Shown here piece by piece: positions 6,880 through 23,487 of a stretch of DNA of 27,906 nucleotides (position 1 is the stretch's first letter; the number at the start of each line of letters is the position of its first letter). A model generated the notes under the pieces. That model was not told the DNA's origin, made no database searches, and was given only the letters and a program-made list of their open reading frames with translations. The DNA comes from a virus, in the IMG/VR virus record IMGVR_UViG_3300032214_001061, positions 1-27,906 of that record; one strand, given 5' to 3'. Made by a program: the position numbers and the translations under genes.

Positions 6880-7536
6880 TTATATGTTATAGTCTGTTGC
6901 CTTTGGTAGATATTCGTCAAAAGAATCTTCAACATCTTTAGAACTAAAGTTTTGAACGTCGTCTGCCGTTAAAACGTATTCTTTACCTGTTTTTTCCATG
7001 TCTTCCATTTTATCTTGGAAGAAATCTGAAAGTTTTTGTTTGAATGGTCCTGAATCTAATGATCTAAGTTCTAGTTTTTCTTGTGCTGTTTTAGGTCTCA
7101 TCTTTTCAATTTGAGCATCTAATGCGTCGATCTTAGTCACTAACTGATCCATTTCACCAAGTTTTTCTTGCATTTTATTAAGTTGGTCAAATAGGTTGTT
7201 AAAATATTCTTCTTGTTTGTCAGCAATACTTGTTTGAGTATCAACTAAATCAGTAATATCTAATTCTTCAACTTCCTCTTCACCTTCACCGCCAATTTCT
7301 TCCACGTCCGGATCTGTAGCAACATCTACAGGTTTGTTTTCTTCAGCTGGAGGTGCTGGTGGTGCCGGAGCAGCTGCTGCTGCCGCAGGATCTGCCGGTG
7401 GAGCCCCTGCCGCTGCAGGATCTGCAGGTGGAGCCGTGGGGTCTACAGGTGGTAATGGTTCCTCTTGTTCCATGATATACTTATTGATACGATTGTATCT
7501 ATCTAATTCTTTTAATATTTTTTGATCAATTGCCAT
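6880..7536 (-). CDS. Pro/Ala-rich coiled-coil protein, probable virion component
   Basis: I do not recognise a named family. Residues 1-25 form a charged helix. About 26-75 is a flexible linker built from repeats of the type PPADPAAAGA, encoded by a locally GC-rich 30-base direct repeat that stands out from the AT-rich surroundings. Residues 76-100 are very acidic (EEIGGEGEEEVEEL). About 105-150 is predicted coiled coil (QEEYFNNLFDQLNKMQEKLG, then EMDQLVTKIDALDAQIEKM). The C-terminal part contains ELRSLDSGPFKQKLSDFF. There are no Cys residues. It is the last gene of the tail unit, one base after the 74-residue gene, and is followed by a strong terminator, so a structural or assembly role in the virion is likely. 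That role is inferred from position only. Confidence 0.8.
   Translation of the reverse strand: MAIDQKILKELDRYNRINKYIMEQEEPLPPVDPTAPPADPAAAGAPPADPAAAAAAPAPPAPPAEENKPVDVATDPDVEEIGGEGEEEVEELDITDLVDTQTSIADKQEEYFNNLFDQLNKMQEKLGEMDQLVTKIDALDAQIEKMRPKTAQEKLELRSLDSGPFKQKLSDFFQDKMEDMEKTGKEYVLTADDVQNFSSKDVEDSFDEYLPKATDYNI
7340..7436. repeat. GC-rich 30-base direct repeat in the Pro/Ala linker
   Basis: Two close copies of a 24-base block containing GCAGGATCTGC and GGTGGAGCC, beginning at 7382 and 7412 on the plus strand, give a 30-base period that encodes PPADPAAA-type units. Alanine GCN tracts extend the repetitive zone to about 7340. Slippage could change linker length. Confidence 0.7.
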
Positions 7537-7793: not shown

Positions 7794-10700
7794 TTAAAAA
7801 GATACATTTGTTTGGATATCATTTTGACTTCTGAACGAATCTAAAGCCTCTCGGAACTTATTTCCTAATTCAGTTCTTCCGGCTTCATCTAATTGTGTCC
7901 AAACATTTTCATTTCTTTGGATTGGGTATTTCAACACATAATTTTTAGCTAAGGCCACTATCACGTCAAGCCCTAAGTTATTTACTTCAGTAACAAATTG
8001 TGATTTTATAGGTGGTAAAACGCTAATCACATAATCAATAAAATTATCGAATGTTGGGAAAGACGCTATCGGTATATTTTTTTCGTTTTGACCTCTATTG
8101 ATACAGAAAAACGTTCTTTCGGTATTAACCAAGAACGATGTACTATAATACTCTTTAAGATCAATAGTACTGTAGTTATTTTGATATGACGAAATTCCCC
8201 CTGAATTATTTACAGAATCAACATAAATGTACGTATAACCTATAAGAGTATAATATATAAGATCCGGACTAGTACCACCTGTATAACCTAACCCAACAAA
8301 TTTATTTTTTAATGTTGTATACAATACTTTTAAACTTTGAGTTGTTCTTTGTGGTGTTTCTACTGGCGTGTAATTTCTATAATTTGGGTTGATTAACGCA
8401 CCACAATCTTGACTACCAGATAACGAATCTGTACCTGTCACATTTTGTAGTACTTGTGTTCTTTGACTAATAATGTTATTTGGGTCCGATTGTAATTTAG
8501 TTTCTCGTTCCTTAATTTCCTGTTGGATTGTATTCAAAATATTAACATTCAAAGATTGTATGAACCCGTCAACCTTAGGTAAACTACTAAATGATTGTCT
8601 TGTTCCCGTAATCGTGGTTTCAAATCCCTCTTCGTTTATTCTATGTGAAACTTTGGTAACCAAATAAGGGCCTGAAAACATTGGTATATTTCTTAAATTA
8701 AAATACATTGTAGGTTGCATCAAAGCATTACCCATCATATCTATAGAACATTCGTAACTTCTATTTTTATACAAGTTATATAAAGAAACATTTTGACTAG
8801 TTGACGCTCTATTTCTACCTTGATTTGCCATTTGATTCAATGCTTCTAACGATTCCGATGTAGGTTTACCAGGATCTTGATTCAAGTCAAGTTGTTTGAA
8901 TATTTGTTGATTTTGTTGTGTGATATCCACATTGAACCCAACAACCTTGTTTGATCTCGCCCAATCTGTTTTATTTTGTTGACTCTCAATTAAAGGATTA
9001 TCACTAGATCTTCTTAGATCAAATGCATCATCCCTAAACCTATAATCAACATTTTCATTCATATTGAGGTGTTCACTTGGTTTTGATACATACATACAAA
9101 GATATTTTGGTGAACTATTTCTGTAATCCACATTTAAGAATGTCCCAAATAAACTATTAGCAAATTCTAAAGAACCATCAGGTCTTGGTATTGGGTTTTT
9201 TTCGGCGTCCTGTACGTTATAGAAATTAACATAAGATGGTAACATAAAAGACTGGAAGTTGTTAGTCTTAACTATGGTTTCAACCGTATCCAATAAAGAG
9301 TTTTTATATGAATATGATTCAATTAAATCTTTGATTTTAAAGATGTCTACGTAAACTTTATCACCAACATCTCTACTTGCTCTGTCAACTAACATTACAT
9401 CCTCAAATAATGTTCTATTACTCAAATCAAAACCAGCAATCCAAGCGTCATTTAAGGCTTTAAAAGTTTCCCAAAGTTCAACTCTAGTTTGTTCAGTGAA
9501 CTCAGCCTCTAAAGGGGCTCTTACATTTTTTATTTCTTGATCCACAAAGAAGGTTGGTAGTTCAGCTCTAACGCTCGGCATTAAGACACTAATAACGTTA
9601 TTCGCATAAGTTAAACAGTTCTGTAAATAAACATCATTCAACTCATAAAACTCATTTCTTGTAAGATTAGGATTGTTAAGTTTTAACGTAGCAAAAATCT
9701 TAATCAGTGGAGCTAAATTAACAATATCATTTTCTTCAAAAGCAACATTCATGGTTGGGAAGAAGTCCGTTATGTATGACCCACTATTACTATATTGTAA
9801 TTCAGGAATGTCTGAAAACCCCACATATGTTTCTAACGCCTTCCATGCGGTTGGATTATTACTTTTGGATGTTGATAAATTTATCGATCCTCCGTTGGTT
9901 GGTACTGTACCTGATACATAAGGATTCGCGACATATCGATCTTCAATAAATTGGAATGAATATGAATTAAATATTCTTCTATTAAATGAAGATGGGTTAC
10001 CGTACTTGAACACACAATTGTAGTTGATAAAATTAGTTAACACAGTTTGGAACCTTATGTTTTGTTTTGTGATAACATCATTCAATAATAATTCACCGCT
10101 GTTTCCAACTGGCGTTTCTATCTTCAATAGTTCTCTCATCAAACCTTGGAAATTTTTGAAGGTTAGGTCATTTGAGTTTGTGTCTGTCGAAGTTGGTGTT
10201 ACAAAACTTGAGGGTAATGTATCCTCAAAATCGTAAACCGCCCTACTAAAGTTTAAGAATTCACTTTCAAATAAATCTAACACGCTCTTATCAAACGTAG
10301 TGAATAGTTCTGATATGTTAGTATACTCATTAACATCCCCGTTTATTGAGAAGTTTTGTTGAGTCTTTTTATCATTCAATATTTTTTTAAAGTATTCGTC
10401 AGGAGAATTTTTTGATACTTGTGAGTTGTTAAACCACCCGTAATTAGGTGCATTCCAATATAACCTAACAGATCCATTATACATTGCAGGATTATTAGAT
10501 ATTTCAGTTGTCATGACATTACCAACAAAACATTCAGATTTTGTTTGATTAACATCGGCACCAAATGAAGGTAATACATAATAACCTGCAAGATCATTTG
10601 TTCTTGACAAGACAGACCAAGTTGTAACTCTTAAAGTTCTTGTTGGGTTATTAGGGTCAAATGTCGGAGCCCCTTCTATTTTTGATCCTGAAGTTGTAAA

Positions 10701-13700
10701 TAATTTTAATTTATTGGTGTTGATTAGATTTTGTATCGTTCCACTCCCAATCCCTTGTGTAAAAGCACCCGCCACTTCAAAAGTACTTGTTGTTGGTGTT
10801 TGACTTGGTGTTACAGAGTAAACACCTGGTCCTGCCGTGGTACCTGAAACTTGGAACCCGATTGTAATACCTGTCATTAAAGTTCCTGTCAATTGGGATC
10901 CATTAGTCAATACGTTTGAATCTACATTATTCACAATTAAGAATTTACCTCCCGTGGAAAAACTTGTATTTCCACTTGTTGTTCCGGTAGATAATTGGTA
11001 AAGACCATTACCACCGGTAGGTCCTGTAATTTGATTTCCTAATACAAAAGGTGTGGATGTAAAATTATTACTTAATAATTCTACCCCACCATAAAGGAAA
11101 GGATAATTTAATGCCGAAATTGTTGTAAAATTCCCAAAACTACAATCTAAAAAGTTTCCAATCGTACCTGGTGGTATGTTAGAAACAAAATAAGTTCCTG
11201 GTCCTGATGGTGCAACTATTGTCCCCGTAATACCTAAGGATGGGAAAGTAACCACAGTACCATTCTGTAACACATTACCGTTAGTTACGGACAAGAAAGT
11301 GACAAAACTACTATTGACGTTACAAGTACCAGTAACCGTAAATGATGATGAGCAATCACCTGTAACCTCAACAATTTGCCCATTACCCGTAACTTGAGTT
11401 TGACCTGAAAATAATAACCTTCCTTGTAAGAAGACATTAAAGTCCTCCATTAACTGAGGATAGAATCCTACATTTATATTATTTAATGGTCCAACACCAG
11501 TATTTGTATTTAATACAATAGTTTGGGGGGTGTTGTTAATAGTTAAATTAAATGTTAACGTTGACGCAGAATTTACCGGATCATAATTCTGTAAATAGTT
11601 AAAATTATTCCAAACAGAATCCAACATGTCAGTTCCCGTATCTAACCACGTCTTATATCTATTCCAAATAGAACCATATTTTAATACCCAAGCGTAAGGT
11701 AATCTATGAATTGCGCCGAACTTTTTGAAGGTGGAGATTAAGTAATCCAAATCTTCCGCCTCATTTGAGGTTCTGTATTTTTCTCTAAGTGTTGCTAAAG
11801 GCAAAGAATTCAAAAACAAATACGCAGCGTTCTTATATGGTGAAGTCTCATTCTGTTTGTACCTAAAGTTTTTAACACCCTCCTGTATTGCATTCATGAA
11901 GTAAGGTGTGTTCAACATAGAAGTTGTCTGATCCGCAACTAACTTTCCTGTGTAACCAGAGTAATTTAAATTTCCTTCTGTAACAAATTGTTTCTCAATA
12001 GTTCTTGTAAGATAAAATTCTTTTAGATCACTTTTATTAGGTGTAACAATTAAGTTTTCAAAATTAAAATTTGTGAAAGGTCTTATCGCATCATTGTTGT
12101 TTGCAATAATAGCATCAAAATTTGTTATTGTTTTTTGTAGATCATTATATCTTAATACTTTTTTCGTATCGTAAGCCACCTGAGCACTTTGTAATGATTG
12201 TCCATCGGCTAAGTTTAATTTGTCCCAAGTTAAATTAGTTATTGGGTATAAATCTGTAAAATCAAATTGATTTGACATCGTAGAGTCACCAACATATTTT
12301 TTAATGTTAATAATATTTGTCTCATTCTTAGTTGTAACACCCGGTTGTGTCTTACCCTGATTGATTATTTCAAAGTTGAATAATTTGTTTGGGTTATTTA
12401 CCTCACTTCTAATGTAAGGTGTTGTAAACTCACCTCTAATATATCTCTGCCAACTTTCACCCTGACCTTGATTTGAGATATGTCTTAAAAATGGAATAAA
12501 GTTATTTTGGTCAATCAAATACTCTTTAAGTATTTTAGAAAGGAAGGGATTATCTCCACCCAAACTTTCAATAATATTGATCGCTTCATTTTCCGCCTCA
12601 ACATTATATATACCCAACTGATAACTTGTTTGTCTTCCAAGTTTACTATAGAAACTATTTAATAAAACTCTTTCATAAATTTCATAAAAGTATTTTGCCT
12701 GTTCTTTGTTTTGGAAAATTTCATTTGATACCGGAAAATCAATTGAATTCAACGACATCCTTTTAGGTTTCTCAACGGGATCCACTTCTATTGTATCACC
12801 CTCTGATTGATCTTCTTGTCTCAAAACGTAACCGTTAATAAATTGTTCAACAAACTCCACCTCAGGCCAAACATCGGGATTAAACGCATTGTAAGATGAT
12901 GCAACACTTAAGTCACCAGGATATATTATTTCAAATTTTTCTTTATTATCGTCAGTCGTACTTTCCTTTAACACTTGTGGCCAAGGATAAATAGGTTCAT
13001 CGTTCTGAGTTGAGGTTTTAATATCAACACTTGGTGCAGTACTTTGATTACCAAATATTGCGGCTCTTCTATAACGATTGTTTCTTTGATCCCAAGACTT
13101 ACGATGCACCTCATCCATTAACCTTAAGAATGCCTCACCTTGACAGTAAAATATTGCTAATATGTTTCTTATGGAAGGTATAAATCCTAACCCAGTCGAT
13201 TTACTTGTAAATTGTTCCGCTAAGTTATCAGTAATTTGTTGTTCAATTTTTTTTCTAGTTTCTGTTGCAGTTTTAGATATTCTGTTTGTTACATCAATAA
13301 ATTTATCAGTACCCTCAAAAATAAAAAACAAAGAATTATTTTCTAATATTGAAGTATTATATTCAGTCAGAAACGTAATATAATTAGTATCTCCCGTTAC
13401 ATTTACAGTTTGTACGTTGGTATTTCGTTCTTTATATGTTCTTATTGGATCAAATAAGGGAACTCCTTTTGGTGATATTAAACCTAATTCAATAGTCTTA
13501 GGGTCGTCAATGTTTGATTTAAATGGTTTACCTCCAACACTATAGGTTCCATTTGTACCAAATACGCTATTAGACAATAATATCTTATTATATTTTTCAA
13601 TGATACCAGTTGATAACTTACTAACCGCATCAATTTTTTGAGCTGGTGTTGTATTTTTTTTGAATGTGTAGTAAGTAGTTCCGTCAGCCATCACAAACGG

Positions 13701-14810
13701 TTTTGTGCGATCTAAATTTTGATTATACCAAGAACTAGACGCAGTATAAACATCCAATCTATAAGAATTTAAAGTAGTAAGATAATTTGATATTTCTGTT
13801 ATCACCCCTAAATTCTCCTTACTATATTTGTCCAATATATCCTTAATGAAGGAATCTAATCTATATCTTAACTGGTTCAATGTAATCTCAGGAAAATCAT
13901 CATCTATCAATCCTTTAGATTTATAGTCAGAATAAATTTCCCTCATTTTTTGATATCCACGATAAACTATATTTTTTTTCTGAGCGGTTTCTGATTGAGT
14001 GCTTGGGGTATTTTGCGTTGTTGCAGGACCAGTTATTACATTCGGATACATATAAGGTACCGACATTAACATCCCAAAGTTTATATACGATAATAATGTA
14101 TACTTGTATCCGTAGAATTTTAGTTTAATAATGAAGTTATGTGATGAAGGGTCAAACGACGATGTGAATGATTGTAACATTATCGGTAGTTTGATAGCCT
14201 TACCGTAATAACCTTTTATTGTTAATTGGAACTGCGGATATGGTAATTGGAAAAACGCGGCGTAAGGTGAGTTGTTACCACCCTCAAATAAAGCTCTACC
14301 TTTCACATCTTCTAATGTAATATCAATTACAGGTAAAAAACTTGAGTCGATATTAATATTAATATCCTTCATACCCAAAAGACCAGTGTCAGTAGCGCCT
14401 GGTTTACCATTTGATAATAAATTTTGAGTAATATAATAATCTGAGGACCTGCTTGGACTTTGTACTTCGGGAGCGTTTAATTTAATTTGATTAACTCCTT
14501 CACCTTGTAAACTACCTTTACCTGTAATCTCATCGGACCACGCCGTGTCCATGAATTTTTTATTACCGGGATTAAGGAAGTTTATCTTCCCAACCGAAAT
14601 AGTTCTTTGTGAATCGTTTAAAGCATTCCCAACAGCTAACTTAGTTCTTGGTAATACGTTACACTCAAGATTTGCGTAATATACCAAATCTTCTTGCCTA
14701 ACTAATCTGTCTTTAACATTACCATTAGGATCTATAGTTTTATTAGGATCAATAAGGGTGATGTTATCATAGTCAAATTCAACAAGTATGTTATCTGTGT
14801 TATCTACCAT
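7794..14810 (-). CDS. Giant baseplate hub-like structural protein, 2338 residues
   Basis: By far the largest gene here. Residues about 157-245 look like a tube/hub beta domain (PYPQFQLTIKGYYGKAIKLP). Near residues 2040-2075, MFSGPYLVTKVSHRINEEGF followed by ETTITGTRQ resembles the closing domain of gp27/gpD/VgrG-type hub proteins. Between them is a long region of unknown fold. At about 1155-1360 lies a Gly/Thr/Asn-rich insertion with three imperfect beta repeats containing GPGTYFVS, GNGLYQLS and GPGVYSV. No lysozyme catalytic pattern of the T4 gp5 type is evident. It follows gp53 with an 11-base overlap, as expected for baseplate genes. It may fuse the functions of several T4 baseplate proteins. 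Hub identity is an inference from the terminal domains and gene order; the remainder is unassigned. Confidence 0.8.
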   Translation of the reverse strand: MVDNTDNILVEFDYDNITLIDPNKTIDPNGNVKDRLVRQEDLVYYANLECNVLPRTKLAVGNALNDSQRTISVGKINFLNPGNKKFMDTAWSDEITGKGSLQGEGVNQIKLNAPEVQSPSRSSDYYITQNLLSNGKPGATDTGLLGMKDININIDSSFLPVIDITLEDVKGRALFEGGNNSPYAAFFQLPYPQFQLTIKGYYGKAIKLPIMLQSFTSSFDPSSHNFIIKLKFYGYKYTLLSYINFGMLMSVPYMYPNVITGPATTQNTPSTQSETAQKKNIVYRGYQKMREIYSDYKSKGLIDDDFPEITLNQLRYRLDSFIKDILDKYSKENLGVITEISNYLTTLNSYRLDVYTASSSWYNQNLDRTKPFVMADGTTYYTFKKNTTPAQKIDAVSKLSTGIIEKYNKILLSNSVFGTNGTYSVGGKPFKSNIDDPKTIELGLISPKGVPLFDPIRTYKERNTNVQTVNVTGDTNYITFLTEYNTSILENNSLFFIFEGTDKFIDVTNRISKTATETRKKIEQQITDNLAEQFTSKSTGLGFIPSIRNILAIFYCQGEAFLRLMDEVHRKSWDQRNNRYRRAAIFGNQSTAPSVDIKTSTQNDEPIYPWPQVLKESTTDDNKEKFEIIYPGDLSVASSYNAFNPDVWPEVEFVEQFINGYVLRQEDQSEGDTIEVDPVEKPKRMSLNSIDFPVSNEIFQNKEQAKYFYEIYERVLLNSFYSKLGRQTSYQLGIYNVEAENEAINIIESLGGDNPFLSKILKEYLIDQNNFIPFLRHISNQGQGESWQRYIRGEFTTPYIRSEVNNPNKLFNFEIINQGKTQPGVTTKNETNIINIKKYVGDSTMSNQFDFTDLYPITNLTWDKLNLADGQSLQSAQVAYDTKKVLRYNDLQKTITNFDAIIANNNDAIRPFTNFNFENLIVTPNKSDLKEFYLTRTIEKQFVTEGNLNYSGYTGKLVADQTTSMLNTPYFMNAIQEGVKNFRYKQNETSPYKNAAYLFLNSLPLATLREKYRTSNEAEDLDYLISTFKKFGAIHRLPYAWVLKYGSIWNRYKTWLDTGTDMLDSVWNNFNYLQNYDPVNSASTLTFNLTINNTPQTIVLNTNTGVGPLNNINVGFYPQLMEDFNVFLQGRLLFSGQTQVTGNGQIVEVTGDCSSSFTVTGTCNVNSSFVTFLSVTNGNVLQNGTVVTFPSLGITGTIVAPSGPGTYFVSNIPPGTIGNFLDCSFGNFTTISALNYPFLYGGVELLSNNFTSTPFVLGNQITGPTGGNGLYQLSTGTTSGNTSFSTGGKFLIVNNVDSNVLTNGSQLTGTLMTGITIGFQVSGTTAGPGVYSVTPSQTPTTSTFEVAGAFTQGIGSGTIQNLINTNKLKLFTTSGSKIEGAPTFDPNNPTRTLRVTTWSVLSRTNDLAGYYVLPSFGADVNQTKSECFVGNVMTTEISNNPAMYNGSVRLYWNAPNYGWFNNSQVSKNSPDEYFKKILNDKKTQQNFSINGDVNEYTNISELFTTFDKSVLDLFESEFLNFSRAVYDFEDTLPSSFVTPTSTDTNSNDLTFKNFQGLMRELLKIETPVGNSGELLLNDVITKQNIRFQTVLTNFINYNCVFKYGNPSSFNRRIFNSYSFQFIEDRYVANPYVSGTVPTNGGSINLSTSKSNNPTAWKALETYVGFSDIPELQYSNSGSYITDFFPTMNVAFEENDIVNLAPLIKIFATLKLNNPNLTRNEFYELNDVYLQNCLTYANNVISVLMPSVRAELPTFFVDQEIKNVRAPLEAEFTEQTRVELWETFKALNDAWIAGFDLSNRTLFEDVMLVDRASRDVGDKVYVDIFKIKDLIESYSYKNSLLDTVETIVKTNNFQSFMLPSYVNFYNVQDAEKNPIPRPDGSLEFANSLFGTFLNVDYRNSSPKYLCMYVSKPSEHLNMNENVDYRFRDDAFDLRRSSDNPLIESQQNKTDWARSNKVVGFNVDITQQNQQIFKQLDLNQDPGKPTSESLEALNQMANQGRNRASTSQNVSLYNLYKNRSYECSIDMMGNALMQPTMYFNLRNIPMFSGPYLVTKVSHRINEEGFETTITGTRQSFSSLPKVDGFIQSLNVNILNTIQQEIKERETKLQSDPNNIISQRTQVLQNVTGTDSLSGSQDCGALINPNYRNYTPVETPQRTTQSLKVLYTTLKNKFVGLGYTGGTSPDLIYYTLIGYTYIYVDSVNNSGGISSYQNNYSTIDLKEYYSTSFLVNTERTFFCINRGQNEKNIPIASFPTFDNFIDYVISVLPPIKSQFVTEVNNLGLDVIVALAKNYVLKYPIQRNENVWTQLDEAGRTELGNKFREALDSFRSQNDIQTNVSF
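10740..11345 (-). other. Inserted beta-repeat region within the giant hub protein
   Basis: Three imperfect repeats of about 60-70 residues, rich in Gly, Thr, Ser and Asn with few charged residues. Each carries a pattern of NG, then TG or SG, then GPG/GNG followed by Tyr and a short strand ending in Ser. Composition differs sharply from the Asn/Lys/Glu-rich flanks. Similar GxGxYxVS repeats are known in phage fibres and adhesin-like structural proteins. It was probably acquired as a module. Confidence 0.55.
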
Positions 14811-20155: not shown

Positions 20156-21985
20156 TTATGGTTTCTTAGGGTTCATACTTAATTGGGATGATCCTGCAGC
20201 TTCTTTTATTGTTTGTCGTATTACCGTGTTATTTTCCATTAATTCTTGTATTTTTTTTGCTAACTCAGTGTCGGAAACTTGCACGTTTTGTCCGCCTTTC
20301 ACATCAAGACTCATATTTACGTTAATATCATTTTTAGACTCTAATTTTTGAGTGAGTGGTTCATATTGTTTCCCAGCATTTCCTATAGCGGATTCAAATT
20401 TAGTCGTCACGTTTGTTGCCACTTCACCTATATTTTTCGTGATATTGTCCACAGCACTTCCCATTCTACCCACCGCCTCTTCAAAACCCTGAGCGTTGTT
20501 TTGTAATAAGGAAATTACGGCATCTTCAGCCACTCTAGCAGCAGGTGTAAACGTTTCTCTAACTCTACTTGCAGTATATTCAGTTGTTGCTGCTCTGGCG
20601 GCGCCTCTTGTAGTTTCTCTTGAGGTCTCTAATAATCTTTGAACAGGCCCTAAAGATGCCATACCTAATTGACCCCCCAATCTAATTGATTCAAGTTGAC
20701 TATTCATGAATGTCGCCTGATCTAATTGTTCAACCGCAATCTCTTCAATACTTTTATTATTCTGATCTTGTGATTGTTTTAATTTTTCAATATCCTCAGG
20801 TGTTAATTGGTCAGGTTGTTTCAATTCAACTTTACCAGTTTGTATATTTTTAATTGTTACAGTCGCAACCCCGTCTTTTATTTGGGACATCGATGCAATA
20901 AGTTCTTTAGTCTCTTTATCGTCAGCGAAACTTGGTAATTTAATTTGGGATAACTTTCTGTCAAATTCAGCGGCTTGTATACCCATTTTAGCAAATTCAC
21001 TAGCATCAATGTTTAATGCCGATGCAACTTCTCTCATTCTTCTTTGAGCACCAGGCATAATTTCAAATTTATTGTTCGCCTCACTAAACTTCACAAAGTC
21101 TTTAGTTAAGTTAACAATTTCATTTTGTAATGCTTCAGGATCATTTTGGGCCATATCCATCGCCTTTAATGGATCCAATAACCCATTTGCAGTAACACCT
21201 AATCTTTGTAAAGATGCAGCATAATCAATTGCTTTTTCAGGTGAGAATAAATCATCAGCAATTCTAAATACATCACTCATACTAACTCCAAGACGTGCGG
21301 CTTGAGTTGCCATTTTGGTAAGTCCTTGTACCCCTCCTTCAAAATTATATAAGTTAATTTTTCCAAGATTTTCAGTAACACCTTTAGCAACCGCTTGTAC
21401 TGGTACCCCCACATTTCTTGCATAATTTGTTACTTCAGCCATTCTGTCACCAACGTCATACATTGATATACCAACCTCTCTAAAGTTAGCGGCTAAAGCC
21501 CCAACATCTTGTCCGGTCACTTTTGCTGCCGCCGCAATTTCAGTAACGGCTTCCGTACCTAAACTTGCGGCAGTCCCTAATTTATCTGTTATACTTGTTA
21601 TTGTGGATGCAAATTCAGTTTCAGAAATACCCATTTGAGCTAATATAGGTCCAACATCCGCAATTAATGTCTTAAATTCTTCAATCCTGTCTCTTGAGAC
21701 TCCGAATGATTGTTGTATTTTGGTCCCTTCAGCTTCTAATATACCAATACCTCTAGTTAAACCACCTATGGACTCAATTACCGCGGAACCAAATTGTTTT
21801 GCAATTTCAGGGATATTATATAAAGAATCGGCAACCGCAGTATATTGATCAGCAGAAACTTTAACATCCTCAGCGGTTTTTTTAGATAACTGACCTTCTA
21901 AATCTTGATTTTTTGATACAGCATCGGCCAAACTTGCTTCGAGTGTGTTTACTCTTTTTTCTAATTGTTCTATTGTTGCTGCCAT
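20156..21985 (-). CDS. Tail tape-measure protein
   Basis: A 609-residue helix-rich protein, Ala/Glu/Thr-rich, with no Cys. Residues 1-40 form a heptad coiled coil (IEQLEKRVNTLEASLADAV). About 45-300 is a long helical region with Gly-Ile/Gly-Val-rich turns (SIGGLTRGIGILEAEGTKIQ; NFREVGISMYDVGD) as seen in phage tape-measure cores. A central variable part is at 330-430, and the C-terminal region has repeated helices (GFEEAVGRMGSAVDNITKNI). The protein sets tail length and would occupy the tube lumen. Its length is close to T4 gp29 (590), so the tail should be T4-sized, about 90-100 nm by the usual 1.5 angstrom per residue rule. It follows the gp26-like gene and the small +1-frame ORF, the normal tape-measure position. 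An AAAAGGA ribosome site precedes the ATG. Confidence 0.85.
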   Translation of the reverse strand: MAATIEQLEKRVNTLEASLADAVSKNQDLEGQLSKKTAEDVKVSADQYTAVADSLYNIPEIAKQFGSAVIESIGGLTRGIGILEAEGTKIQQSFGVSRDRIEEFKTLIADVGPILAQMGISETEFASTITSITDKLGTAASLGTEAVTEIAAAAKVTGQDVGALAANFREVGISMYDVGDRMAEVTNYARNVGVPVQAVAKGVTENLGKINLYNFEGGVQGLTKMATQAARLGVSMSDVFRIADDLFSPEKAIDYAASLQRLGVTANGLLDPLKAMDMAQNDPEALQNEIVNLTKDFVKFSEANNKFEIMPGAQRRMREVASALNIDASEFAKMGIQAAEFDRKLSQIKLPSFADDKETKELIASMSQIKDGVATVTIKNIQTGKVELKQPDQLTPEDIEKLKQSQDQNNKSIEEIAVEQLDQATFMNSQLESIRLGGQLGMASLGPVQRLLETSRETTRGAARAATTEYTASRVRETFTPAARVAEDAVISLLQNNAQGFEEAVGRMGSAVDNITKNIGEVATNVTTKFESAIGNAGKQYEPLTQKLESKNDINVNMSLDVKGGQNVQVSDTELAKKIQELMENNTVIRQTIKEAAGSSQLSMNPKKP

Positions 21986-22009: not shown

Positions 22010-22192
22010 TTAAGTATTGTTTTTAGAAGATTCTATGATCTTTTCTATAATATATCTTCTCACATAAGTTGGCATGCTTAAGAATTCAGAATATTGCATT
22101 CTCATTATTTTGGCGAGATAGTAAAACTCGTCGATTAGACTTACACTGTAACTAGAAGAAAGGCCGAAAAAATTCCACCCCAAAAGCAATGT
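22010..22192 (-). CDS. Small tail-assembly ORF overlapping gp26-like gene in +1 frame, candidate frameshift product
   Basis: This frame is open for 60 codons from the stop at 22193-22195 to TAA at 22010-22012 and overlaps the last 41 bases of the gp26-like gene. The peptide includes GLSSSYSVSLIDEFYYLAKI then MRMQYSEFLSMPTYVRRYII and ends EKIIESSKNNT. The pattern YYLA-x(5)-Y-x-E-x(3)-MP-x(3)-RR-x-IIEKI resembles the small protein that follows tail-assembly chaperones in contractile phages and injection systems. The only ATGs lie inside that motif, so an ATG start would remove its first helix. The alternatives are a TTG at 22187-22189 or +1 slippage on TTT TTT CGG (22164-22172) in the upstream gene, giving a fused C-terminal extension. 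The ORF fills an otherwise unexplained 140-base gap. Confidence 0.6.
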   Translation of the reverse strand, partial: TLLLGWNFFGLSSSYSVSLIDEFYYLAKIMRMQYSEFLSMPTYVRRYIIEKIIESSKNNT

Positions 22193-22916
22193 TTACCACT
22201 GCTTTTTCTCCTGACGGGGCTATAATTTCTTTTGATAGATCTAATCTTGGTTCATTTTCAATAAGAAAATTTCTTACAAATTTGGAGTCTTTGATTGGCA
22301 TCTGTTCAACAAAAGTCGAAATTTTAACTCTGTCTGTAGAACCATTTAATTCTACAATATTTTTAATGAGTCTTGTTGTTACAACGGGAGCATTTCTTTC
22401 TGAGGGATAAGAACTAATAATCCTTTCAATTTCTAACTTATCACCCATAGTTAATAATTTAAGTTTAACCTTATGTTTTGACACAGGTAACTCAACCTCA
22501 AAATAACCTTCTTGATTTGGTTCTTGTTTTGGTTTAATAATATTTAATTCACTTAAATCAACAACAGCGGTAAAATATTCACCTGTCTGTGGGTCCACCG
22601 CAGAAACACTATATTCAGATCCAAAAGATGTGTTTCTCAAAAATATCAATATTGCTTCTGTATCGCCTTCTAATAATTCTTCAGGTCTCAAATCTCTTTC
22701 ATACAATCTGTTTCGTAATAAAGGAAGAACTATTGATTCGTTAATTGTTTTTTTCCTATCGATAGATGAAATGATATTCTCATCAGCGGCAGTTAAATAA
22801 CCAACTTTAACACTTCTCTTTTTACTCTTGTAAAATAGACCCTCAGACGGAAGTGATACTACGTCATGTGGTAAATTAAATTCTGCTTGTCCAGCGTTAT
22901 AGATATCTTGTTCCAT
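22152..22916 (-). CDS. 26: Baseplate hub/tail assembly protein, T4 gp26-like
   Basis: A 254-residue protein with the layout of T4-type gp26/gp51 baseplate assembly proteins. It opens with an LPSEGLFYK motif at about 22-30 (phage relatives have LPSKGxFY), then SVKVGYLTAADENIISS, an inner helix with VLPLLRNRLY, EELLEGDTEAILIFLRNTSF, and GSEYSVSAVDPQTGEYF. A later beta region is FEVELPVSKHKVKLKLLTMG. No Cys residues. Such proteins act in the cytoplasm as chaperones during tail or baseplate initiation. The gene lies between tube and tape measure, where lambda keeps its frameshifting G/GT chaperone. The last codons overlap another ORF at a TTT TTT CGG site. The family call comes from motifs and position. 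Confidence 0.75.
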   Translation of the reverse strand: MEQDIYNAGQAEFNLPHDVVSLPSEGLFYKSKKRSVKVGYLTAADENIISSIDRKKTINESIVLPLLRNRLYERDLRPEELLEGDTEAILIFLRNTSFGSEYSVSAVDPQTGEYFTAVVDLSELNIIKPKQEPNQEGYFEVELPVSKHKVKLKLLTMGDKLEIERIISSYPSERNAPVVTTRLIKNIVELNGSTDRVKISTFVEQMPIKDSKFVRNFLIENEPRLDLSKEIIAPSGEKAVVNIAFGVEFFRPFF

Positions 22917-22998: not shown

Positions 22999-23487
22999 TT
23001 AGTATACTAAGATACATCTGTCCATTTGCATTTGACAAGTGATACCCGCAATATTATCTGAGTTGTACGCTAATGAACCACCATCATACCCTAAAAGGAA
23101 TGTACCCTCTAAAATCCATTTCTCAACAACTACTCCCGTTGGGTCCAACATTTCAAGGTCAACATTCTTTTTGTAACCCGCAGCATAACCCATACGTCCT
23201 GTTACTGATTCCGCACATAAACGAATCCATTCCATAACCGCTTGTGACGCTGAAGGTCCGATTGGATCACGGAATTTTACTGAAAGGGGGTCCCATTTGA
23301 ATCGTCCCGCAACAAAAGTAGACGTATTTAAGAATTCAATTTCTTTTGAAGTAATAGACAATTTTGGTCTTGCAGTACTCTCAACATACCACTCGTTAAT
23401 ACCAAGTGATGATGGGAATCTCAAGATCCAACGGTTTTCCCTTTTCGGTTCGTAAGGGATCGGCATTTTCATTAGTAAATCAGCCAT
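22999..23487 (-). CDS. 19: Tail tube protein, gp19-like
   Basis: A 162-residue protein matching the T4 gp19 tube family in length (163) and in landmarks. There is an N-terminal ENRWILRFPSSLG segment at about 16-28. It is followed by WYVESTARPKLSITSKEIEF, the beta hairpin FKWDPLSVKFRDPIGPSASQ, VMEWIRLC, and a C-terminal QMQMDRCILVY strand. It polymerises as hexameric rings inside the sheath and conducts DNA. It is followed at once by an intrinsic terminator, and a TATTTATC motif lies 32 bases upstream of its ATG. This suggests a separate transcript, as suits a highly expressed virion protein. The leader is an A-rich tract without a clear Shine-Dalgarno site. The tube and sheath genes are separated by the HAD gene, unlike T4 where they are adjacent. 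Confidence 0.92.
   Translation of the reverse strand: MADLLMKMPIPYEPKRENRWILRFPSSLGINEWYVESTARPKLSITSKEIEFLNTSTFVAGRFKWDPLSVKFRDPIGPSASQAVMEWIRLCAESVTGRMGYAAGYKKNVDLEMLDPTGVVVEKWILEGTFLLGYDGGSLAYNSDNIAGITCQMQMDRCILVY

Follow-up and report, generated by a model that had tools for sequence, protein, structure and literature searches.

The T4 proteins gp26 and gp51 were reportedly assigned to the tail chaperone (TAC) proteins by Vladimirov, Gautam and Davidson in 2022. Frameshifting of the lambda type is widespread in TAC genes, for which T4 is given as the exception, while the myovirus HSTV-2 was called a very likely case of a +1 shift (PMC5009743). PMC10885494, citing Vladimirov 2022, reports a short gene and a fused long gene in T4-like phages, in place of a frameshift. 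The TAC genes of Adele and the Vandenendeviridae/Andersonviridae contain a -1 shift at GTTTTT (PMC12846349). Shifts in the +1 direction at UUU_CGN were demonstrated for PA-X of influenza A (PMC3498833) and deduced for plant amalgaviruses, in which all four CGN codons are present (PMC5052127); for the haloviruses of the HF1 group a +1 shift at TTT-CGC was proposed (PMC7230728). Our literature search, itself incomplete, did not reveal a paper on +1 frameshifting in gp26-family genes.

The DNA analysed here (the window) is the virus record IMGVR_UViG_3300032214_001061 of 27,906 bases, which is a fragment. On its minus strand, a tail tube gene, a gp26-like gene, a short ORF in the +1 frame and a gene for 609 amino acids follow each other in this order. 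The features discussed below are:

22999-23487, minus strand: tail tube protein, the upstream neighbour (phrog_4542, E=2.2e-18)
22152-22916, minus strand: gp26-like gene, zero-frame product the putative TAC-N of 254 aa (PF12322, E=3e-8; phrog_150, E=4.2e-14; Foldseek)
22209-22220, minus strand: upstream conserved element GCCCCGTCAGGA, a possible stimulator (RCCCC kept in 143/143 distinct sequences)
22158-22184, minus strand: conserved nucleotide block TTTGGGGTGGAATTTTTTCGGCCTTTC (synonymous conservation)
22177-22181, minus strand: GGGGT within this block, similar to a Shine-Dalgarno (SD) sequence and complementary to the upstream RCCCC (anti-SD duplex energy, RNAalifold)
22164-22172, minus strand: candidate slip site TTT TTT CGG, whose codons would occupy the E, P and A sites during the shift (conservation in relatives)
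22010-22189, minus strand: small ORF in the +1 (= -2) frame relative to the gp26-like gene
22010-22168, minus strand: +1-frame C-domain, TTC GGC CTT ... ACT plus the stop TAA (open and conserved in 128 relatives)
20156-21985, minus strand: downstream gene for 609 aa in the tape-measure position (by position)

The gp26-like gene ends with GGG GTG GAA TTT TTT CGG CCT TTC TTC TAG. When sequence and frames were rechecked, the codons GAA TTT TTT CGG CCT and the small ORF in the +1 frame were found as a sequence-only reading of the window had described them. Shifting by +1 at the second TTT would give ...GVEFF-GLSSSYSVSLIDEFYYLAKIMRMQYSEFLSMPTYVRRYIIEKIIESSKNNT, a product of 301 residues in total (TAC-NC). 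The stop codon of the +1 frame lies at 22010-22012, so counted after Phe250 the extension comprises 51 residues; the 54 codons given earlier are right if counted from NFF. The earlier placement between tube and tape measure was also confirmed, for the tube by phrog_4542 and for the tape measure by position and by Flavobacterium phage immuto, whose gene at the same position is annotated as tail tape measure. Searches with PHROG and Pfam profiles gave no family match for the 609-aa product. Within the 27.9-kb fragment, one match to the N-domain and one to the C-domain were obtained, and a second gene of the T4 type, comprising N-domain plus C-domain, was absent. Elsewhere on the minus strand, a very long ORF of 2,338 aa with a repetitive low-complexity middle occupies the baseplate region (7794-14810), and the protein encoded at 6880-7536 has a long low-complexity N-terminal stretch rich in Pro, Ala and Asp.

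The family PF12322 is common to the N-domain of the window, T4 gp26 (8.8e-64) and T4 gp51 (3.9e-52). Because it also holds the two T4 proteins, the N-domain is homologous to proteins reported as TACs. Of the T4 pair, gp51 alone possesses an extra C-terminal tail. A confident AF2 model of the 301-aa fusion (pLDDT 85, pTM 0.74) predicted C-domain helices at residues 247-250, 254-271, 275-280 and 283-298. Foldseek matches of the fusion in BFVD were entries named as T4-like baseplate hub assembly protein, as baseplate hub subunit of SP-15 and as Aeromonas gp26, as well as single-ORF proteins aligned over 286-304 columns; among solved structures, no credible match was found by sequence or fold. A single-HMM search of the C-domain against the gp51 tail remained without a match, and the profile-profile comparison with hhalign gave P=0.0096. 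Homology of these two sequences is suggestive only.

Relatives were collected from IMG/VR with the window protein (28), with an alignment (80 kept of 575) and with a distant alignment (20). The sequence-only reading had proposed to align homologous phages to see whether TTT TTT CGG and the +1 overlap are kept, and this was the case. In the 85 distinct genes of the main clade, codons 245 (TTT), 246 (GGG), 249 and 250 (TTT each), 252 (CCT) and 253 (TTC) were all identical (85/85), and the codon of R251 was always CGN (CGG 77, CGC 8). A +1 extension that stays open for 40 codons or more was retained in 128 relatives. The mean normalised synonymous conservation amounted to 0.68 for codons 244-253, versus 0.157 for codons 1-239. 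Beyond the overlap, the +1 ORF showed a median dN/dS of 0.41. An exact motif scan of IMG/VR with TTTGGGGTNGANTTTTTTCGNCCTTTC yielded at least 120 sites, a set partly overlapping the earlier loci. In 120/120 of the matches listed the +1 frame stayed open over 40 codons or more, or as far as the contig reached, and each of the four CGN codons was found in the A site (CGG 59, CGT 29, CGC 28, CGA 4). The features of the UUU_CGN motif, i.e. UUU in the P site, CGN in the A site, both in phase, and re-pairing to UUC, were present in 85/85 genes and in the 120/120 matches listed. Judged from these alignments, the +1 frame is open across the relatives far beyond chance. Every main-clade relative has kept site and overlap, and most of the very distant ones have done so with TTT-C or TTT-T as the site. 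A search for relatives among GTDB genomes, made to obtain a clue to the host, found none. Public records contain the C-domain as short hypothetical proteins beginning at internal starts, or leave it unannotated (L036, 3330-3440; L033, 3240-3359; L030, 3240-3476).

The codon CGG, previously suspected to be rare, accounted for 2 of the 8,730 codons of the window, compared to 238 for AGA, and the slip site is the single place in all window genes where TTT is followed by CGN. In the alignment of the 85 genes, 77 of 78 CGG codons reside at this site. Across 119 related loci (approximately 218,000 codons) TTT_CGN was encountered 125 times, 111 of them as TTT_TTT_CGN, and AGR followed TTT 253 times. 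In the relatives, CGG and CGC are very rare and CGT is moderately rare, making up about 9% of the Arg codons. That CGT stands at the slip site of some relatives despite being only moderately rare is a point against the +1 reading given below.

From the comparison of these sequences we consider it highly probable that programmed ribosomal frameshifting by +1 takes place at UUU_CGN and yields a TAC-N/TAC-NC tail chaperone pair. Most ribosomes would read the zero frame up to the stop of the gp26-like gene and release the 254-aa TAC-N. Occasionally, the Phe-tRNA in the P site would let go of UUU and re-pair with UUC, one base further on, with CGG in the A site, and translation of the +1 frame would then result in the 301-aa TAC-NC with its extra helical C-domain. 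If lambda gpG/gpGT is taken as the model, the tape measure would be coated by TAC-N in large and TAC-NC in small numbers, and these would also bring in tail tube subunits. The position of the gene, its homology, the frame, the conservation of site and C-domain and the lack of another start in some relatives were observed directly; from them we infer that the ribosome slips, how efficiently it does so and that the products act as chaperones. At the T6 run the slip in vivo presumably proceeds in the +1 direction. The sequence-only reading had placed the slip at the second TTT while CGG waits, and this was the interpretation best supported by our data, as site and overlap are conserved and starts are missing in some relatives. 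Its remark that a +1 shift here would be unusual did not hold: +1 is the rule for the clade of the window, and +1 shifts at UUU_CGN have precedents among viruses of eukaryotes and were also proposed for haloviruses.

The +1 ORF might instead be a separate small protein, initiated independently at a conserved TTG (TTG GGG TGG) or at some other codon than ATG; translational coupling may be involved. The window indeed contains an in-frame TTG at 22189, and at 116 of the 129 tallied loci some ATG, GTG or TTG precedes the site in the +1 frame. In the remaining 13, none of these codons was found upstream; therefore, a separate start cannot yield the conserved peptide there, and for these relatives a gene starting at TTG is refuted. 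The overlapping C-domain lies in another frame, lacks its own start in 13 relatives and accompanies a conserved slip site, as in frameshifted TAC genes. The 13 include L003-L005, whose proteins are 95-96% identical to that of the window; there GTA replaces GTG and creates a +1-frame TAG directly before AAT TTT TTC GGC, downstream of the TTG and ahead of the site. In L120-L128, too, a stop of the +1 frame immediately precedes the site. Despite these stops the +1 peptide is conserved from FF(G/A)LS or SFGL onward. To the former statement that no usable ATG gives the whole motif, the TTG at 22189 of the window has to be added, though in the near-identical phages L003-L005 a stop intervenes. A separate start would also leave the invariant TTT TTT CGN CCT TTC unexplained, and SD sequences are mostly missing from the window genes. 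Two loci, L130 (3727-3760) and L135 (3715-3745), do carry an ATG of their own for the C-domain directly after the gp26 stop, and their slip site is degraded. A normal ATG in relatives that lack the slip site had been named beforehand as evidence against frameshifting; this combination is confined to these two distant loci, where the ATG appears together with the loss of the site. On balance, we regard independent initiation as very unlikely.

Phage Mu uses a -2 frameshift. A -2 shift would lead to the same frame with one extra Phe, and the T6 run of the main clade allows re-pairing two bases back, whereas the sites of the L120 type (GGC TTC TTT TGG), L031 (AAC TTT CTA) and L032 (TTC TTT CGT) pair with the Phe-tRNA at +1 and not at -2, which makes this explanation slightly less probable still. 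Slippage of the RNA polymerase on the T6 run, by which an edited mRNA would join the two frames, is hardly credible: the main clade possesses the run, but it is short, and the arrangement is kept in L031 with TTT only and in L120-L128 with TTTT. Both the -2 shift and transcriptional slippage are incompatible with the sites of L031, L032 and the L120 type. A -1 shift of the lambda type (X_XXY_YYZ) was dismissed, since in the nearest relatives the -1 frame closes after 3 codons.

The arrangement was followed further in distant phages; for those found with the window protein, the N-proteins are only 25-33% identical to that of the window. The C-domain was in the +1 frame in Microcystis phage Mel-JY01 (AAC TTT TTT TGG), jumbo LR756508 (AAC TTT CTA), Streptococcus phage GXN1 (GAA TTC TTT CGT), Bacillus phage SP-15 (GAA TTT TTT CAC), Pseudomonas phage QdP_Psa3 (GAC TTC TTT CCC TAA) and Flavobacterium phage immuto (AGC TTT CTT TGG), and likewise in Listeria phage LIS04, which has TTT TTT AGT at the candidate site. 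At LR756508 and GXN1, as in the L120 group, the Phe-tRNA can pair at +1 but not at -2, and the T6 run required for polymerase slippage is missing. According to the sequences of L130 and L135, in which the C-domain starts at its own ATG, fusion by frameshifting is not universal in the family. In Agrobacterium phage Atu_ph07 (L039, 3260-3290) and LR756511 (L037, 3185-3275) a canonical T_TTT_TTC is followed by a helical ORF in the -1 frame; Atu_ph07 gave no score with the profile of the C-domain. From these two sequences, the direction of the shift seems to switch within the family.

We also looked for elements which may stimulate the shift. GGGGT is invariant, and GGGGTG forms a duplex of -9.4 kcal/mol with the anti-SD. 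It resembles an SD sequence, but most window genes are without one, and its spacing to the slip codon differs from that in prfB. Most minus-strand genes of the window have A-rich leaders without SD sequences, as in Bacteroidota phages. Located 36 bases upstream of the slip block, the element RCCCCNTCNGGA is conserved at the nucleotide level, and in all of the distinct sequences (143/143) its RCCCC and GGGGU are complementary to each other. Pairing of the two was predicted by RNAalifold. In 28 sequences a change of Ala GCC to Thr ACC leaves CCCC untouched and converts the first pair from G-U to A-U; the arms are otherwise invariant and thus offer no covariation by which to judge the pairing. 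While the ribosome is at the slip site, GGGGU lies inside it. The upstream RCCCC element is a possible stimulator. Downstream of the site RNAalifold predicted no stimulatory structure (0.0 kcal/mol). Tentatively, one may imagine a previously undescribed two-part cassette, in which an upstream RCCCCNUCNGGA pairs with or competes for the GGGGU beside UUU_UUU_CGN and thereby drives the +1 shift in hosts that make little use of SD sequences. The +1 shift might then be the older mode of the gp26 family, and -1 sites, split genes and the two genes of T4 might be later replacements. We consider this scenario, cassette included, less likely than not.

According to earlier reports, no frameshift is involved when T4-like phages produce their tail chaperones, and T4 figures as the exception in a review of 2016. 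By their sequences, relatives of gp26 would use frameshifting after all, in the +1 direction and across a large, mostly uncultivated group, and one gene appears to provide both chaperone forms in a large family of bacterial viruses that have not been cultivated. In public records the long product is absent or cut short. UUU_CGN has now been encountered in bacterial, archaeal and eukaryotic viruses, so that simple bacterial reporters can be used to test what CGN in the A site does. Since a single assembly problem is solved in this family by +1 shifts, by -1 shifts, by split genes and by two genes, the switches between these solutions can be traced.

Compared with known systems, the signal is by its sequence of a known kind (UUU_CGN, +1), here in a tail chaperone gene of the gp26 family. 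Like lambda gpG/gpGT, the gene is located between tube and tape measure and would give a short product and a rare frameshifted long one with a small helical C-domain; unlike lambda, which shifts by -1, the window would shift by +1 and has an N-domain of the T4 gp26 family (PF12322). With T4 gp26 and gp51 it shares this N-domain, present in all three proteins, and the gp51 tail takes the position of the C-domain, but T4 has two genes on opposite strands, whereas the window has one gene and a putative frameshift. The Adele TAC gene is similar in its poly-T site at the TAC-N end and its conserved downstream frame and differs by the -1 shift at GTTTTT. In the HF1-group haloviruses the proposed TTT-CGC +1 site lies near the TAC-N end inside a conserved block (PMC7230728), and at the HF2 site we read AAG TTT CGC AGA TAG; in contrast to the window, their hosts are archaeal, and the HF2 TAC-N of 157 aa has no visible similarity of the gp26 type. 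Influenza A PA-X and the amalgaviruses share with the window UUU_C in the P site, CGN in the A site and the +1 direction, although they involve eukaryotic ribosomes and different genes. The E-site codon is UCC in influenza and UUU in the window, while all four CGN codons occur in the amalgaviruses as well as in the window family.
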